Of a DNA stretch of 35,919 bases, positions 3,625 to 28,782 are shown one piece after another (the stretch's first letter is position 1; each line of letters starts with the position of its first letter). Made by a program: the position numbers and the translations under genes. The notes under the pieces were generated by a model, which made no database searches, had not been told where the DNA came from, and worked only from the letters and a program-made list of their open reading frames with translations. Source of the stretch: Gammaproteobacteria bacterium (GTDB lineage: Bacteria > Pseudomonadota > Gammaproteobacteria > CAIRSR01); assembly GCA_963575655.1 (NCBI GenBank), contig CAUYTY010000190.1, positions 1 to 35,919 on the forward strand, written 5' to 3'.

Positions 3625-5019
3625 CTAAAAACCCGGACAAACTTGGACATCCAGATTTTTAGATATTTCGCTCTCCGTTGATAGGTTTGTCGGCCCGCAA
3701 CTGGAGTCCTGGTTGGACAGTCTCAACCGGAGGCGCTCGGTCCGTTCTAGCAATATAGATTTCACCTTCTTGAAAGGCGTCCATCGATCTATCCCCGGAT
3801 CGTGAAGTCTTGCTAAAACGTTTCGCGCAGCGTTCTCATCCGCCTGCAAAACCACCCCGTCGAAACAGTGAAATTGATCCCCTTTGCGGCTACCTAGTAA
3901 ACAGCCGCTCCGAGAATCCATTTGTGAGGTATAAGCAGGATTAACGAGAACCAACGTAGAACCTCTACGCTGGGATACATTCTCAATCGCCTCGGCGATG
4001 ATGCCTTTGGTCCAATTCGCCAAACGACGATTCACATTTCTACCAAAATTCTTGCCACTCATTTGAGCGGTCAAATCTTCCGCTACTATCACACTAGCTT
4101 TATCAACAACGGCATGAACCGCCTGGTAAACTTTATCACGAATCTGAGCCTTTATTATTCTTGCATGACGCTGTTTTTTCTTGCGGCCAAGATTGTGTTT
4201 GAGTATGTGTTGACGCTTACGGTTATTACGAGTGTTCTCGGCGATAGCTCGAAGTTTTGCTCGGCGCTGATTTTTGCTTTTGAGTGCGTCGGATTCAGTG
4301 GATAGCAATTCACCAAGACCTTTTCCGTGATGTTCACCATCGGAATCAACTAATACTTCCGTGTATCCTTTGTCCACACCAATTATTTGTACGCCACAGT
4401 CGTTTGTTTGGGTAACTTCGACTGCGTAATGCACTTCCACTTTCGCTTCGCGTAAAATTAATCGTAAGGTGCCAGTTGGTTCCACGATGGTATTCAAAGG
4501 GATCGCTATGCGTTGCCCGCGTTCTAGTCCTGGGATTTTTATCCAGGCATGTCCACCCAATTGAAAGGATGTGTAACTATCTGAACGAACAATGATTTGA
4601 TTGTGCGTATGATTATGGCCCCGATTCCAATACTTGCGCATCACGCGCGCCAGATAACGATCCTCAACGAATTGATTTGTTTTTAACCTTGCGTAAAGAC
4701 TCTTACGTTCTTGAACATCAGGGCTGTGATTACGAATCGCTTGTCTAGCCTTTACCTTAGCCGCTTCGACCGTCATAACGATGTTGGTTTCCGCATCACG
4801 CAAGGTTTCCTTCCAAGCATTCGCCAAAACCGGAAAGGTACGTTTTTCATTTATCCAGGTATCACGAATCTGACGATCCGTCAGTCTAAGAGCTTGAATC
4901 GAACCATAGCGCTGCCAGACTTCTGAACGGATAGCGCCAAGCCTTTGCGCTTGTTCTTCTAGCGCTGATAGCTTTCCTGGATTAAGTTGTTTGCTCAACG
5001 CTATCCGAGTCGTTTTCAT
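3625..5019 (-). CDS. tnpB: IS607-type TnpB RNA-guided nuclease, zinc-finger cysteines lost
   Basis: The best start is ATG at 5019, giving 464 residues (a TTG 21 nt earlier is also in frame); residue numbers here count from that TTG. The RuvC triad is intact: D223 in GVDKGYTEVLVDSDG, E321 in IVAEDLT and D401 in LQADENAARN. A basic arginine-rich stretch at 255-300 would contact RNA. The usual CxxC...CxxC zinc finger between the last two motifs is altered: where TSQxCxxCG is expected the protein has TSQMDSRSGCLLG, and FxCxxCG is FHCFDG. TnpB proteins use an RNA from the element's 3' end to cut DNA and help the transposon persist. It overlaps tnpA by 38 nt, and its last codons lie in the element's end repeats. 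It appears full length. Confidence 0.85.
   Translation of the reverse strand: MKTTRIALSKQLNPGKLSALEEQAQRLGAIRSEVWQRYGSIQALRLTDRQIRDTWINEKRTFPVLANAWKETLRDAETNIVMTVEAAKVKARQAIRNHSPDVQERKSLYARLKTNQFVEDRYLARVMRKYWNRGHNHTHNQIIVRSDSYTSFQLGGHAWIKIPGLERGQRIAIPLNTIVEPTGTLRLILREAKVEVHYAVEVTQTNDCGVQIIGVDKGYTEVLVDSDGEHHGKGLGELLSTESDALKSKNQRRAKLRAIAENTRNNRKRQHILKHNLGRKKKQRHARIIKAQIRDKVYQAVHAVVDKASVIVAEDLTAQMSGKNFGRNVNRRLANWTKGIIAEAIENVSQRRGSTLVLVNPAYTSQMDSRSGCLLGSRKGDQFHCFDGVVLQADENAARNVLARLHDPGIDRWTPFKKVKSILLERTERLRLRLSNQDSSCGPTNLSTESEISKNLDVQVCPGF
3635..3648. repeat. IS607 right-end phased GGAC repeats
   Basis: GGAC occurs at 3635 and 3645, exactly 10 bp apart, inside the last codons of tnpB. Their complement matches the GTCC-N6-GTCC repeats at the other end of the element (5631, 5641, 5651) in inverted orientation. 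They are good candidates for TnpA binding sites. The exact cleavage point is not visible because IS607 makes no target duplication. Confidence 0.6.
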
Positions 5020-5627
5020 GGTGTTCTTCTTGGGTTTCAAGAGATTCTTTCAATACCTGCTTATACTTTCGTAACCCGTATAAACGACAGGAAAAAGTAT
5101 GAACGATGGCCATCAAATCCTCAACCATTTCATGTTGTGGACTTAAATGCTCTTGGTTAGCGACGATAATTTCACATCCATTTTCTTGAGCCATTATCTG
5201 AATAATAATCAAGGCCGAAGCGCACTAAACGATCTTTGTGTGCAATGATAAGACACTTGATTTCTCCCAACTGAATCTGCGACATCAATGATAAAAATAA
5301 TTTTCGCTTAAAATTCATGCCACCACCAATTTCCTTGATCCACGTATCCACAGCAATCCCTCGTGCGAGACAAAATTGTTCCATTGCGGCAACTTGCGAG
5401 GCAAGATCATTTTCCTGGTTCTGGCTAGAAACACGGCAATATACGACGACATGCCGATCCTGTTCCTTAGCGCCAAGATAAGAGCGGACATCAGATTCAT
5501 CATAATAGCGATGCCCACTGGGACGACGTTTCGCAACCAATTTCCCCTCGGCTTCCCAGCGACGCAGTGTTCGTGTTGTCACTCCGATTTTTTTGGCAAG
5601 TTCTGAAGGGTGGTATATTTCGGACAT
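4982..5627 (-). pseudogene. tnpA: IS607 family serine recombinase TnpA, frameshifted
   Basis: From ATG 5627 (an in-frame TTG is at 5636) the protein has a MerR-type HTH (YHPSELAKKIGVTTRTLRRWEAEGKL...GHRYYDESDVRSYLG) followed by the small serine-recombinase domain with catalytic serine in VVVYCRVSS and a normal RHxxR-type helix (IIAHKDRLVRFGLDYY). Near 5195-5205 an extra base moves the frame. The rest (NGCEIIVANQEHLSPQHEMVEDLMAIVHTFSCRLYGLRKYK) continues in the next frame to 4982. The two parts together make a normal-length IS607 transposase. The break looks like a recent single-base indel; there is no clear slippery site, so programmed frameshifting is unlikely. Confidence 0.85.
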
Positions 5628-14377: not shown

Positions 14378-14384
14378 CGAACAG

Positions 14385-14400
14385 TGGGGGCAGGTCTTAC
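14385..14400 (+). repeat. 16-bp repeat shared with 23533-23548
   Basis: TGGGGGCAGGTCTTAC follows the stop of the DsbC-like gene by 7 nt; an identical copy follows the M16 gene at 23533. Both are soon followed by MITE-type sequences in the same order, so they may mark a larger repeat unit. Confidence 0.7.
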
Positions 14401-14458
14401 GCTATTTCATGAATTACAGGTATCAGTTATCCGCCTAATCCGCGACACCTTGGCTTCC

Positions 14459-14532
14459 TTAACTCGGATAGCTACTTCGCACGCTTTTCTCCCCTCTCCC
14501 CCTGGGAGAGGGGATTTTTCGTTTCTCACGTA
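14459..14532 (+). repeat. MITE type B, diverged copy with intrinsic terminator
   Basis: TTAACTCGGATAGCTACTTCGC resembles the left terminal repeat of the copy at 23731, and the interior (CTTTTCTCCCCTCTCCC...GGGAGAGGGG...TTTTTCGTTTC) matches it too. CCCCTCTCCC (14491-14500) and GGGAGAGGGG (14504-14513) plus ATTTTT form an efficient rho-independent terminator, which probably ends the DsbC-like transcript. A flanking CGCGACACCT/AGGTGTCGCG pair (14440-14449, about 14551-14560) is a second, outer inverted repeat. Confidence 0.65.
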
Positions 14533-14724
14533 AGAGTGTAGGGACAATGCGTAAGAATTAGGTGTCGCGACGGTAGCCTGCATATCTTGGTAGTTCGAAT
14601 GTCAGGGAATAAAAATACGCAGCAAAATGTCAATTGTAAAACCTGACCACAGATCCTGTTAGATGATATTTCAGTGCCACAGTAACATCAAAGTGTTCGT
14701 TGGTTAATGTGGTAGGGGGTATTT

Positions 14725-16404
14725 ATGGTTGCTATTGCCAGTGATAACAAAATGTCTAATGATAAACCCGGCTGGTTCATTGTAGTGTCTCAGAAGAGTG
14801 GGGAGTTGCGTCTGTTTTTTCCAGATGTTCATCTTTCCAGGAGCGGAGTGGTAATTGGTCGTTCCCAAGATTGTGATATAACTATTGATGACCCGTATCT
14901 TTCTGGGCAGCATTGTCGACTTCAACTTTTTAAGGGAAAGCTGCAAGTCACTGACGTGGGATCGAAGAATGGTGTGTTTGTTGCGGAGAAACGATTGGGA
15001 TCGGGAGAATCCGCAACCTTAGCTTTTAGTGATCGCTTTCGTCTCGGAGGTACCGGTCGGGACGCGATCGAGATCGCTGTCGAGAGAACGGTCCCTCAAG
15101 ATTTGTCTGATGGCACACTCCTGGTCGATGACGATGACTACACCGAGGATTCGCCGCCCCCAATACGGATGGGCGTTAATCGCAGTGTAGTGTTTGGTGG
15201 GGCCGCGTCCAACGGTAAAGGGTTGCCACCCTTTTCTATGGCTACCAAGGATATGCCTGCATGGTCTGTAGACGAAATTACACCGCGTGGTCAACCGCAA
15301 CCGGTTTCGTCCGCAAAAAGATCCTCGCCAATTCTAATTGTAACGGGGGTAGTCATACTGGCGGCGGCTACCGGATTCGGGGGGTACACCGCGAAGAACT
15401 ACTACAAAACTATCCAGAAAACTACCCAAGAGGCGGTTGTTACGCCACCTACGCCCGTTGCAACGCACCCCATTGAGGCTACTGCTCCGACCTCCGGAAA
15501 GGTAGCTGTTCTGTCGTCCGCCGAAACATCTGTACCTATCCCTCTGGTTTCTCCTACGGTTAAAGAAATCTCTTCCCGCCCCCAACCCGTACCATCGGTA
15601 TCTGCGTTGTCAACGATTCGGGAAATTGCGCCGGGCAAAAAACGTCAGGAACGTATCATTAAGAATACGCTCGCTGAGCAGTATCGTGCGATTGACTTCG
15701 GTAATTATTCGGCATTGGTCATTGGTAACAATGAGTATCGCTATGTGCCTAAACTCGACAATGCGGTCCAAGATGCCGAGGCGGTTGCTGATAGTTTGGT
15801 GAACAATTATGGTTTCAGCGTGACAATGATTTTGAATGGCAGCCGGAGTGATACCCTTTCGACGCTAGATCGAATGCGTGGCAAGCTAACGCAAAAGGAC
15901 AATCTGCTCATTTTTTTTGCGGGACATGGAATATACGACCAGGCATCGGATCGGGGATATTGGCTCCCCGTTGATGCTCAGCCTGATACCCGCGCTAATT
16001 GGATATCGAATACCGATATTACCGATTCGATGAAGGCGATTCAGGCCAAGCATATTCTGGTTGTCGCAGATAGTTGCTATTCAGGTACCCTGACACGCTC
16101 GGTAATGCCCGAGCTGCCTTCTCCCAGTGTGGTCGAGCGGATCAACGGTCATCGTTCTCGGACAGTTTTGGCCTCAGGTGGAATCGAACCAGTAGTGGAT
16201 GGCGGTGGTGCCAGTCAGCATTCTATCTTTACCTCGGCCTTCCTTGACGCACTAAAAAATAATACTGCCGTTATTGATGGCTCGGGCATGTTTGGCCAGA
16301 TTCGTGACCCGGTGCGTCTCAATGCGGATCAGATGCCAACCTATGCCGATATTCGGAACGCTAATCATGAGATTGGCGGTGATTTCCTTTTCGTGCGACG
16401 CTGA
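14725..16404 (+). CDS. FHA domain - transmembrane - caspase-like (C14) protease
   Basis: ATG 14725 follows AGGGGGT. The 559-residue protein has an FHA domain at about 18-118 with the phosphothreonine-binding set (G45-R46-S47, S60, H63, GSKNG near N82), a proline-rich linker, one transmembrane helix (about 202-220), a second linker rich in Pro/Ser/Thr (235-300), and a C14 caspase-like domain from about 325 to the end. The catalytic dyad is intact: H401 in FFAGHGIYD and C451 in VVADSCYSG. The FHA is expected in the cytoplasm, which would place the caspase domain in the periplasm unless topology is reversed. It shares a transcript with the PP2C gene 3 nt later. Substrates are unknown. Confidence 0.88.
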   Translation: MVAIASDNKMSNDKPGWFIVVSQKSGELRLFFPDVHLSRSGVVIGRSQDCDITIDDPYLSGQHCRLQLFKGKLQVTDVGSKNGVFVAEKRLGSGESATLAFSDRFRLGGTGRDAIEIAVERTVPQDLSDGTLLVDDDDYTEDSPPPIRMGVNRSVVFGGAASNGKGLPPFSMATKDMPAWSVDEITPRGQPQPVSSAKRSSPILIVTGVVILAAATGFGGYTAKNYYKTIQKTTQEAVVTPPTPVATHPIEATAPTSGKVAVLSSAETSVPIPLVSPTVKEISSRPQPVPSVSALSTIREIAPGKKRQERIIKNTLAEQYRAIDFGNYSALVIGNNEYRYVPKLDNAVQDAEAVADSLVNNYGFSVTMILNGSRSDTLSTLDRMRGKLTQKDNLLIFFAGHGIYDQASDRGYWLPVDAQPDTRANWISNTDITDSMKAIQAKHILVVADSCYSGTLTRSVMPELPSPSVVERINGHRSRTVLASGGIEPVVDGGGASQHSIFTSAFLDALKNNTAVIDGSGMFGQIRDPVRLNADQMPTYADIRNANHEIGGDFLFVRR

Positions 16405-16407
16405 CCT

Positions 16408-17268
16408 GTGAAAAAAAACCGGCCTGGAATCTGTCTGCAAAAGATTCATCGACGCTTTGAAGTGGCGGCTGTTACCGATCGGGGCAGCGTGCGCACGTCA
16501 AACGAGGACGGTTTTCTGGTAGACCCCCATCTGGGATTGGTAGTTGTCGCCGACGGGATGTCTGGGCAGAGTGGTGGAAGTGGTGTTGAGGCCAGCGCGC
16601 TGACCATTAAGAGTATTTACAGCTATCTTTCCGGAGGCAAACTCGAGACGACACTGCCTTCGGTATCGGATGAGACGATTCTCTCTACGGGGGGAAATAT
16701 CGACTCATACCCGATGGCGAAAGGGAACCACCAGATTTTACCTCTCGAACAGATGAGAGAGGCGATTGCCTACGCGAATTCTCAGATCTATTCCGTAAAT
16801 CACGCCTGCGGACGACCTGATCGTAAGGGGATTGGCGCCACTCTGGGGGGGATCTATTGGCCATCTCCTGCCGAAGGACGCGCAATTATCTTCCATGTTG
16901 GTGATTGTCGGGTCTATCGACTCCGTGATGCGGTATTGCACCGGTTGACTCAGGATCACAGTGCCTGCCAGAAGTGGATCGACAATGGTATGCAGGGAAT
17001 TCCTCCCGCGCGTAACCTCATTCTCCGCGCTGTGGGTCCCTGTGCCAATGTTGAGGCGGATATCTCTACGCATATGCTACTTCCTGGCGATGTGATCCTC
17101 TTGTGTAGTAACGGGCTTACCCTCATGGTCTCTGACCGTGATATCAAAGCTCTTTTGTACCAAGTAGCTGCGGGGATTGGTGTTGAACAGGGGGCGCTCC
17201 AATTGGTCGATATGGCCAAGGCCAACGGTGGCAAAGACAATATCACCGTCGTGTTGGGAATGATTTAG
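16408..17268 (+). CDS. PP2C-type Ser/Thr phosphatase with altered metal site
   Basis: GTG 16408 starts 3 nt after the caspase stop, so coupling is likely. The 286 residues have the PP2C layout: TDRGSVRTSNEDGFLV (E33/D34), VVVADGMSGQSGG (D49), HVGDCRVYRLRDAVLHRLTQDHS and GGKDNITVVLG (D277). The motif that normally reads CSDGLTxMV is CSNGLTLMV, with N235 replacing a metal-ligand aspartate, so activity may be reduced or the protein may be a phosphate-sensing scaffold. An insert of about 45 residues follows the second motif (75-120). Paired with an FHA protein, it is the expected eraser of the phosphothreonine the FHA reads. No kinase gene lies in the window. Confidence 0.9.
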   Translation: MKKNRPGICLQKIHRRFEVAAVTDRGSVRTSNEDGFLVDPHLGLVVVADGMSGQSGGSGVEASALTIKSIYSYLSGGKLETTLPSVSDETILSTGGNIDSYPMAKGNHQILPLEQMREAIAYANSQIYSVNHACGRPDRKGIGATLGGIYWPSPAEGRAIIFHVGDCRVYRLRDAVLHRLTQDHSACQKWIDNGMQGIPPARNLILRAVGPCANVEADISTHMLLPGDVILLCSNGLTLMVSDRDIKALLYQVAAGIGVEQGALQLVDMAKANGGKDNITVVLGMI

Positions 17269-26493: not shown

Positions 26494-28782
26494 TTAGCGC
26501 AGATTGACGATAGTCTGGGTCAAGGTGTCAACAGCGGAGATTACTTGAGCATTGGCCTGGAAGCTCCGCTGAGACACAATCATATCGACTAATTGCTTGG
26601 TAAGGTCGACATTGGATGATTCTAACGCCCCGGACTGAATCGTTCCCATATTACCTGGGCCACCTGGTGTTCCCGGTACGGGCGTCCCGGAGGTGGAAGT
26701 CTGCGCCCACTCGGTATTTCCTACCGGTCGCAGTCCTTGGATATTAGCAAAATTAAACATCGCCACTTGACCAAGAGTACGGCTGTGACCGTTGGTAAAG
26801 AGGCTGGAAACGGTACCGTCGTTGGCTACATTGATGCTACTGATATGCCCAGTGGCGTAACCGTCTTGGGTAATAGCGGATACGCCGGAGGGGCTACCGT
26901 ATTGCGTGATTTTCCCGTTTTCATTACCCAGATCCATCGTGAAATCAATGTTGGCTGCCCCATTGTTCATCACGGCAGTGAGTTTGATTTTCCCAAGGTC
27001 AGCGGGTGTTGCCGGTGGGGGATAGGTAGTATTCAGTGTTCCATTGCTATCAAACTCTAGCGTCATCGGCGAGCCAGTACCGTTAGGCTCTTTAATCTCC
27101 GCGCCATCCACAAAGGTATGTACATCCCAAAGTTTGGAGCCAGTTTTTACAAAGTAAAAGGAGGTTAGGTGAGAGCCACCCTGTGAATCGTAGATCGTGG
27201 TAGAAGTGGTATAGTCATAGCTCGCAGGGGTGGGAAGACTGCCTGGGGCTGGGTCGGTCCAGATCTTCCCCACGTTACCATTCGCGTTTAGGGTAGGGTT
27301 TACTATTTCTTTATTCTGTAGGCCATTGAGGCTGAACTTAAGGGGGTCAGCCAAACCGCCCGGATTTTGAATGGTGTATTGGAATTGATCCGGTTGCGTG
27401 CGGAGCGTCCCATCCATATTGGCAAACACTTTTATGGGGCTGGGATTATTCGAATCGAGAAAGACTTCCTGCCCATAGGGGGCGTTAACAAGGTTGCCAC
27501 CCGCGTCTCGCGCATCTACGAATGCGTGCATATCCCACTCTCTGGACCCGTACCCTTTTGAGACGAAATAGAGGGTGGCATTGTGGTCTACCCCCAAGGA
27601 ATCTTTACCTATGGATTTAGTGATAACACCGACATTACTGTCGTAGGTTAAAGGATCCGCAGGATTAAAGGCTCCTACAGGTAGTGTCGTTCCCGGTGGA
27701 ACGGCAGTATCCAGTGCCGCCGTTGAGGCGCTGTTTAATCCTAAAGTATCTATATTCTCGCCAGCGGTTTGGATAGCGTTATCGAGATTAATGGTGAAAT
27801 TGATGGGGTTGGCATTATTAATCGGATTGATAAGACCAGGGTCTGGTTGGATATGGTTAGAGATACCGTCAATATTGTTGAAGGTGAGTTGGAGTGGGTT
27901 TTGGGTTTTTATAGCACCGGTGGTGGAATTGAAGGTTACCTTGGCGAGGGTCGGTGGATTGGTCCCAAAATTCGGGTCATTGGGGGCAAATGCAGGGAAT
28001 ACTTCAACACCACCCTGAACACCGTTCACATTGTCTACGACAGTATGTACCGTCCAAACAATATCGTTGTTTGCATCAAGTTCGCCAGTATTGACGAAGT
28101 ACATACTGGCGGTATGAGAGATTCCCTTAGAATCGTAGATCGTGGTTGAAGTCTTACTATTGTAAGTACTTGGCACCGCTGAGTTAAAGGGCGGATCGTT
28201 TGGTATTATCGCTGCCTTGGCATTCAAGCGCAGCCCCTTAACGGTTAAAGTATCGGTTGCCTTAGGATAGGCCTCCGCAGAGTTTAGGTTGATAACCGCA
28301 GACAAGGAAGTTGTCGGCGAGGGGTCGATATCGCTCTGATCTACGTGGAGCTTATCGATCGATCCGATAATCTCTCCGGTGGAGGTGTCGGCCTGATAGA
28401 CATTTAGGTATTGACCCTGAGCATTGACCACATCATTGTTCTTATCGATATGGAAGGCGCCATTCCGAGTGAATAGGGGATTTTGGCTGCCGCTATCAGT
28501 AACGCGGAAGAAGCCGTCACCAGAAATGGCTAGGTCTAGGCTTTGATCCGTGGTATTGGCATTGCCCTGAGTGAATTGTTGGACTACACCGGTGACTTTT
28601 ACCCCGCTGCCGATTCGAGCGCCGCTGTAGGTTCTCAGTGAGGCGCTGTAGAGATCAGCGAATTCGGTGCGTGAGAATTTGAAACCCGTCGTGTTAGCGT
28701 TGGCAATGTTATTGCCAATCACGGAAAGGTCGGTGGATGAGGCATTGAGACCGCTCAGGGCAGTATTGAAGGACATAGACAT
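26494..28782 (-). CDS. flgE: Flagellar hook protein FlgE, enlarged with repeated domains
   Basis: FlgE polymerises into the hook. Residues 1-75 (MSMSFNTALSGLNASSTDLS and NNIANANTTGFK) and the last 60 (LESSNVDLTKQLVDMIVSQRSFQANAQVIS) are the coiled D0/D1 ends. At 762 residues it is nearly twice the E. coli length (402). The middle holds three related segments starting at about 207 (STTIYDSKGISHTASMYFVNTG), 379 (GVDHNATLYFVSKG) and 523 (STTIYDSQGGSHLTSFYFVKTG), each followed by a W-x-V/M-H-x-x-V/F-V-D strand, so the outer D2 domain appears triplicated. A GAGGAG site precedes ATG 28782. The hook surface should be thicker than usual. Confidence 0.95.
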   Translation of the reverse strand: MSMSFNTALSGLNASSTDLSVIGNNIANANTTGFKFSRTEFADLYSASLRTYSGARIGSGVKVTGVVQQFTQGNANTTDQSLDLAISGDGFFRVTDSGSQNPLFTRNGAFHIDKNNDVVNAQGQYLNVYQADTSTGEIIGSIDKLHVDQSDIDPSPTTSLSAVINLNSAEAYPKATDTLTVKGLRLNAKAAIIPNDPPFNSAVPSTYNSKTSTTIYDSKGISHTASMYFVNTGELDANNDIVWTVHTVVDNVNGVQGGVEVFPAFAPNDPNFGTNPPTLAKVTFNSTTGAIKTQNPLQLTFNNIDGISNHIQPDPGLINPINNANPINFTINLDNAIQTAGENIDTLGLNSASTAALDTAVPPGTTLPVGAFNPADPLTYDSNVGVITKSIGKDSLGVDHNATLYFVSKGYGSREWDMHAFVDARDAGGNLVNAPYGQEVFLDSNNPSPIKVFANMDGTLRTQPDQFQYTIQNPGGLADPLKFSLNGLQNKEIVNPTLNANGNVGKIWTDPAPGSLPTPASYDYTTSTTIYDSQGGSHLTSFYFVKTGSKLWDVHTFVDGAEIKEPNGTGSPMTLEFDSNGTLNTTYPPPATPADLGKIKLTAVMNNGAANIDFTMDLGNENGKITQYGSPSGVSAITQDGYATGHISSINVANDGTVSSLFTNGHSRTLGQVAMFNFANIQGLRPVGNTEWAQTSTSGTPVPGTPGGPGNMGTIQSGALESSNVDLTKQLVDMIVSQRSFQANAQVISAVDTLTQTIVNLR

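Follow-up and report, generated by a model that had tools for sequence, protein, structure and literature searches.

A candidate FHA-transmembrane-caspase and PP2C gene pair that may couple Ser/Thr phosphorylation to proteolysis outside the cytoplasm

Introduction

Bacterial orthocaspases and metacaspases (PF00656, MEROPS C14) share a p20-type fold, a His/Cys catalytic dyad and the acidic residues of the S1 pocket, and they are frequently exported or anchored in a membrane. Although caspase homologues are abundant in bacteria, the control of most of them is a gap. MALT1 is a cytosolic paracaspase that is activated by Bcl10 filaments. The T6SS threonine phosphorylation pathway (PpkA-PppA-Fha) works by a kinase/PP2C/FHA logic. 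It is common for bacterial C14 proteins to carry accessory domains of many kinds, and the main text of a 671-protein survey names no FHA fusion among them; the survey further counts 14 metacaspase operons with OmpA and 23 with signalling domains, its text naming no kinases among them (PMC3501461).

Here we describe a two-gene locus in a gammaproteobacterium that sets a caspase among phospho-signalling domains. "The window" means the whole stretch of DNA that was analysed, 35,919 nucleotides long. Where orthocaspases and metacaspases have a signal peptide or lipobox, the window protein has an FHA-transmembrane arm, and unlike MALT1, its caspase domain is predicted to be periplasmic. Its component domains are known singly, but we found no description in open-licence papers of an FHA-TM-caspase fusion paired with a PP2C, nor of any FHA-C14 fusion, and to that extent the arrangement is new.

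Results

The two open reading frames lie on the forward strand and are separated by 3 nt, as the earlier note had described them. Their features are as follows.

14725..16404, + strand: FHA-TM-caspase (C14) protein, 559 aa, ATG start (Pfam; full-length orthologue in the sister species)
14848..15048, + strand: FHA domain (aa 42-108) with R46, S60, H63 and N82 (Pfam; nearest solved structure, GarA/Rv1827)
15325..15387, + strand: single predicted transmembrane helix, aa ~201-221 (hydropathy; same position in the orthologue)
15700..16401, + strand: caspase-like domain (C14; aa 326-559), for which a periplasmic location is predicted (profile, alignment, model)
15772..15774, + strand: Asp350, a predicted acid of the S1 pocket that aligns with MALT1 Asp365 (invariant in the relatives' alignment)
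15925..15927, + strand: catalytic His401, AGHG (alignment)
16069..16071, + strand: Asp449 (DSC), second predicted S1-pocket acid (invariant in the relatives' alignment)
16075..16077, + strand: catalytic Cys451, DSCYSG (alignment)
16405..16407, + strand: intergenic gap, 3 nt (equal length in the sister species)
16408..17268, + strand: PP2C-family (Stp1/IreP-like) protein, 286 aa, GTG start (Pfam, NCBIfam)
17110..17112, + strand: Asn235 at the motif-8 metal-ligand Asp site, CSNGL rather than CSDGL (alignment)

Pfam matched both halves of the 559-aa protein, the FHA domain at 3.1e-17 (aa 42-108) and the C14 domain (PF00656) at 1.8e-20 (aa 330-540; 74.1 bits against a cut-off of 21.4). The residues named in the earlier note (R46, S60, H63, N82, H401 and C451) were all found at the positions it gave, and the sister species has the same residues there. 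R46, S60, H63 and N82 are the pThr-site residues, and they are conserved in the orthologue. Elsewhere the window holds a TnpB-like open reading frame with a Cas12f1-like TNB domain (3625-5040) and a long FlgE flagellar hook protein of 762 aa in which three FlgE D2 stretches were matched (26494-28782).

Only one other genome of the genus was available, that of a sister species (G001; the window's own genome is G000). It carries an orthologous pair, with the FHA-caspase 55% and the PP2C 65% identical, and the 3-nt gap and GTG start recur there. The locus differs between the two genomes. In the window the pair sits after truB-dsbC, whereas in G001, G002 and G003 other genes follow dsbC and the pair is absent from that position; what follows there is a gene of 138-146 aa and, in some, a larger membrane-type open reading frame and a regulator-like one. 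The small gene (L234, L235, L236) is missing from the window, where the pair and a cytochrome b561 gene take its place (14378-14724 flank). Since the loci differ but the spacing does not, we concluded that the two genes travel as a unit; that this unit recurs with identical spacing and start codon is beyond chance. By region, identity between the orthologues is 51% in the FHA domain, 19% in the cytoplasmic linker, 34% in the periplasmic linker and 79% in the caspase domain. The strongest constraint therefore falls on the protease.

Surveys of 369 genomes of the same class and 398 of the same phylum yielded no further protein matching both the FHA and the C14 halves, and a Pfam scan of 72 caspase relatives found an FHA domain in only two, the G000 and G001 proteins themselves. 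A contig scan with the full-length protein gave no matches; one with the caspase-domain alignment gave 80 loci. Profile searches of the own genome miss weak matches (PF00656 skipped the window caspase, which hmmscan finds, and PF13672 skipped the window PP2C), and absences from them are not proof. A wide distribution of the exact fusion was rejected on the two surveys and the Pfam scan, and the FHA-C14/PP2C module is, as far as sampled, narrow and restricted to the genus. The adjacency proposed by the earlier note is therefore kept in both genomes of the genus but does not extend across the wider samples.

The catalytic His401/Cys451 dyad is intact, in GHG and DSC motifs, and H401, C451, D350 and D449 are invariant in the alignment of 72 relatives. 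An AlphaFold2 model of the caspase domain had a pLDDT of 85 and a pTM of 0.86, and its top structural match was MALT1 (Z 23.9, rmsd 2.5 over 201 residues, 18% identity), with plant metacaspases and caspases also matching. The loop after the catalytic Cys was poorly predicted. As far as this model tells, the domain is not collapsed, a collapsed pocket being one of the two outcomes that the earlier note had named as fatal to its proposal. Besides the fold, MALT1 shares an acidic S1 residue, D350 aligning with MALT1 D365 (the MALT1 residue number was read off the alignment by hand), and D449 lies two residues before C451. In relatives with Arg/Lys specificity, these two positions, MALT1 Asp365 and the Asp two before the Cys, make up the acidic S1 pocket. 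With both acids kept, the caspase domain is predicted to be specific for Arg or Lys. The protein missed the curated cut-off for the EACC1-associated caspase (NF047832; 71.3 bits against 140), and the PADLOC caspase profile gave a weak match of 31.4 bits with partial profile coverage. No defence genes were found among the neighbours of the pair that were scanned.

The window protein has no signal peptide and one hydrophobic helix (aa ~200-222). Counts of Lys plus Arg on the two flanks of the helix are 4 and 0 in the orthologue, a clear N-in pattern, and 3 and 3 in the window protein, which is neutral. An N-terminal export-type hydrophobic segment is present in 84 of 97 complete relatives, and about 40 have a lipobox, so this caspase subfamily works outside the cytoplasm. 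Because almost all relatives are exported or are lipoproteins, we predict a cytoplasmic FHA domain and a periplasmic protease. The single helix, the exported relatives and the flanks of the orthologue thus support, as a prediction, the suggestion that the FHA and protease domains are on opposite sides of the membrane.

The earlier note had cast the PP2C as the enzyme that erases phosphothreonine, and this part of the proposal was weakened. The PP2C_2 match in Pfam is barely above its cut-off (7.3e-06; 26.1 bits against 24), and the NCBIfam Stp1/IreP-type PP2C model matches at 2.4e-43 and 148 bits, short of the 230 bits that its equivalog cut-off requires. Motifs 1, 2 and 11 are intact. Motif 8 of the window protein, however, reads CSNGL (Asn235) where CSDGL is expected, a change that needs a single base, and motif 5 of the G001 protein reads VGKNR, with Lys for Asp, where VGDSR is expected, a change that needs more than one. 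The full set of metal-ligand Asp residues (motifs 1, 2, 5, 8 and 11) is therefore incomplete in both proteins, with a different Asp lost in each. The Asp residues of motifs 2, 8 and 11 hold the binuclear metal centre and that of motif 5 holds a third metal (PMC12088040). Mutation of an M3 ligand abolishes the activity of PPM1B (PMC13142519), but there are reports that M3 is merely supportive in bacterial enzymes (PMC12088040), so the motif-5 lesion in G001 is by itself no proof of inactivity. That the two orthologues carry different lesions speaks against a strong eraser, and both proteins are likely, judging from these residues, to be weak phosphatases or pseudophosphatases. In a 15-row tree the window PP2C grouped with caspase-linked PP2Cs, not with other PP2Cs of its own family (97/96).

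Among the caspase relatives, Sel1-repeat lipoprotein caspases were often found next to Ser/Thr kinase genes. A kinase gene lies within 4 kb at 23 of 33 such loci, which are mostly gammaproteobacterial, as against 3 of 63 loci of other exported caspases (Fisher p 2e-11, related loci being counted as independent); of the latter three, two are truncated loci of the Sel1 type. Most of the caspase-linked kinases keep their catalytic-loop and DFG motifs; two of the kinase genes (L155:1705-2702 and L199:3549-5354) are split over two reading frames, through either decay or sequencing error. A PP2C is also present at 5 Sel1-caspase loci, and FHA genes occur at some, the latter being under-counted because the search profile was made from two sequences and two Pfam-confirmed FHA neighbours fell outside the tally. 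One locus (L209, 666-8343) has the order OmpA, Sel1 lipoprotein caspase, Ser/Thr kinase, PP2C, Crp-type regulator and FHA/cyclase. An operon-like order of OmpA, Sel1 lipoprotein caspase, Ser/Thr kinase and PP2C was seen at three others in Gammaproteobacteria (L201, L207, L223). Neither the kinase linkage of Sel1 caspases nor a kinase-caspase operon was found described in open-licence papers.

These operons share with the window pair a caspase domain (46-52% identical), export and phospho-signalling neighbours; they differ in belonging to a separate caspase clade, in having the FHA unfused and in having the kinase adjacent. Since the FHA-caspase pair falls outside the Sel1 clade in the caspase tree, the coupling of caspases to phospho-signalling probably arose more than once. 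The kinase-adjoining Sel1 clade lends independent support to phospho-control of such caspases. Caspase-linked kinases scatter over several lineages in the kinase tree, which has long branches, and from this tree no cognate kinase could be named for the window pair.

No kinase gene is present at the window locus itself, but the search for a Ser/Thr kinase that the earlier note proposed found several elsewhere in the genome. The PP2C gene of G001 shares one base with the minor pilin gene behind it, stop and start codon overlapping in TAATG, and more pilin-like genes follow. The G000 orthologue of that minor pilin (59% identity) lies inside a type-IV-pilus-like cluster that also encodes a two-FHA T2SSE ATPase, T2SSF, PilM-like and transglycosylase-like proteins and an FGE-domain Ser/Thr kinase that is 77% identical in G001. 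The cluster was located at G000:C228:~58300-69500 (L081, L231), G001:C352 (L232) and C28, and G002:C37 (L233); in G001 the minor pilins sit apart from the rest of it, adjoining the FHA-caspase/PP2C pair. On the strength of gene order in one of the two genomes, a phospho-regulated pilus machine is our best guess for where the FHA-caspase acts. A cluster of a CHASE2-like kinase, a motif-complete PP2C and a double-FHA protein at G000:C166 (L079:3308-7530), conserved in G001:C199 (L080), is a second candidate partner. The T6SS link raised in the earlier note did not hold: no T6SS genes were seen among the genes examined at the window or the G001 locus, so a reading as a T6SS threonine phosphorylation pathway was rejected. 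The output domain of the pair, a caspase, is a further difference from that pathway.

Discussion

We propose, with a probability of roughly 0.5, that this two-gene module ties Ser/Thr phosphorylation in the cytoplasm to a protease held on the periplasmic side of the inner membrane, FHA docking activating the protease and the PP2C tuning it. The architecture, residues, pairing and lesions come from the sequence, and the topology, fold and specificity are predictions. The two genes are probably translationally coupled. A Hanks-type kinase encoded elsewhere would make the phosphothreonine on which the cytoplasmic FHA domain docks, and docking might cluster or dimerise the single-pass protein and so activate it. 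The periplasmic MALT1/orthocaspase-like domain would then cleave an envelope substrate after Arg or Lys, our best guess being pilus or envelope proteins. The PP2C may act on that phosphosite as well, tuning or sensing it either with weak phosphatase activity or as a pseudophosphatase that binds it. Part of the phospho-controlled protease envisaged in the earlier note is supported, namely the domains, dyad, helix, topology and genus-level pairing, to which the kinase linkage of the Sel1 caspases adds; the PP2C as eraser, the wide adjacency and the T6SS connection are weakened or find no support.

The same architecture would also fit a signal running inwards, in which the periplasmic caspase senses stress and cuts a partner or its own chain. 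The cut would free or change the FHA domain in the cytoplasm and thereby shift the activity of phosphoproteins bound to that domain, for instance the FHA-FHA pilus ATPase or the kinase belonging to it. The long, low-identity linkers flanking the helix could hold cleavage sites, and the genome has an FHA/kinase pilus cluster; but the lipoprotein caspase relatives are still kinase-linked although they have no cytoplasmic part to release, and we regard this direction of signalling as unlikely.

We give still less weight to two simpler readings. A plain on/off switch, in which a kinase writes, the FHA domain reads and a fully active PP2C erases, as the earlier note proposed, draws on the intact motifs 1, 2 and 11, the overall PP2C match and the grouping of the window protein with Sel1-caspase-linked PP2Cs in the small tree. 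Against it, positions that bind the catalytic metals (PMC12088040) are altered in both proteins, Asn replacing the motif-8 Asp in the window protein and Lys the motif-5 Asp in that of G001, and PPM1B loses its activity when M3 coordination is lost (PMC13142519); together these points make such a switch improbable. An ordinary stress or defence orthocaspase, with an FHA tail that merely localises it and a PP2C that is an incidental neighbour, seems equally hard to credit. Accessory-domain-rich C14 proteins are common in bacteria (PMC3501461), and the weak PADLOC match (31 bits) points the same way, but the pair stays together, equally spaced, at separate loci in the two genomes, the subfamily is exported rather than cytosolic, and the scanned neighbours include no defence genes.

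A broader extension of the proposed phosphorylation-to-protease module is more speculative than the module itself. Exported bacterial caspases might make up a broad class, so far without a name, of envelope proteases that are coupled to phosphorylation and have repeatedly been combined with kinases, PP2Cs and FHA proteins; the window's genus would have condensed such an arrangement into an FHA-TM-caspase and a pseudophosphatase PP2C serving a phospho-regulated type-IV-pilus-like machine; we consider this possible but doubtful.

For the families concerned, the locus is a reminder that an adjoining PP2C gene is no guarantee of an active phosphatase. A caspase fused to an FHA domain across the membrane, together with a kinase-linked clade of exported relatives, offers a testable route from phosphorylation inside the cell to proteolysis outside the cytoplasm, and suggests an overlooked link between protein phosphorylation and extracytoplasmic proteolysis.
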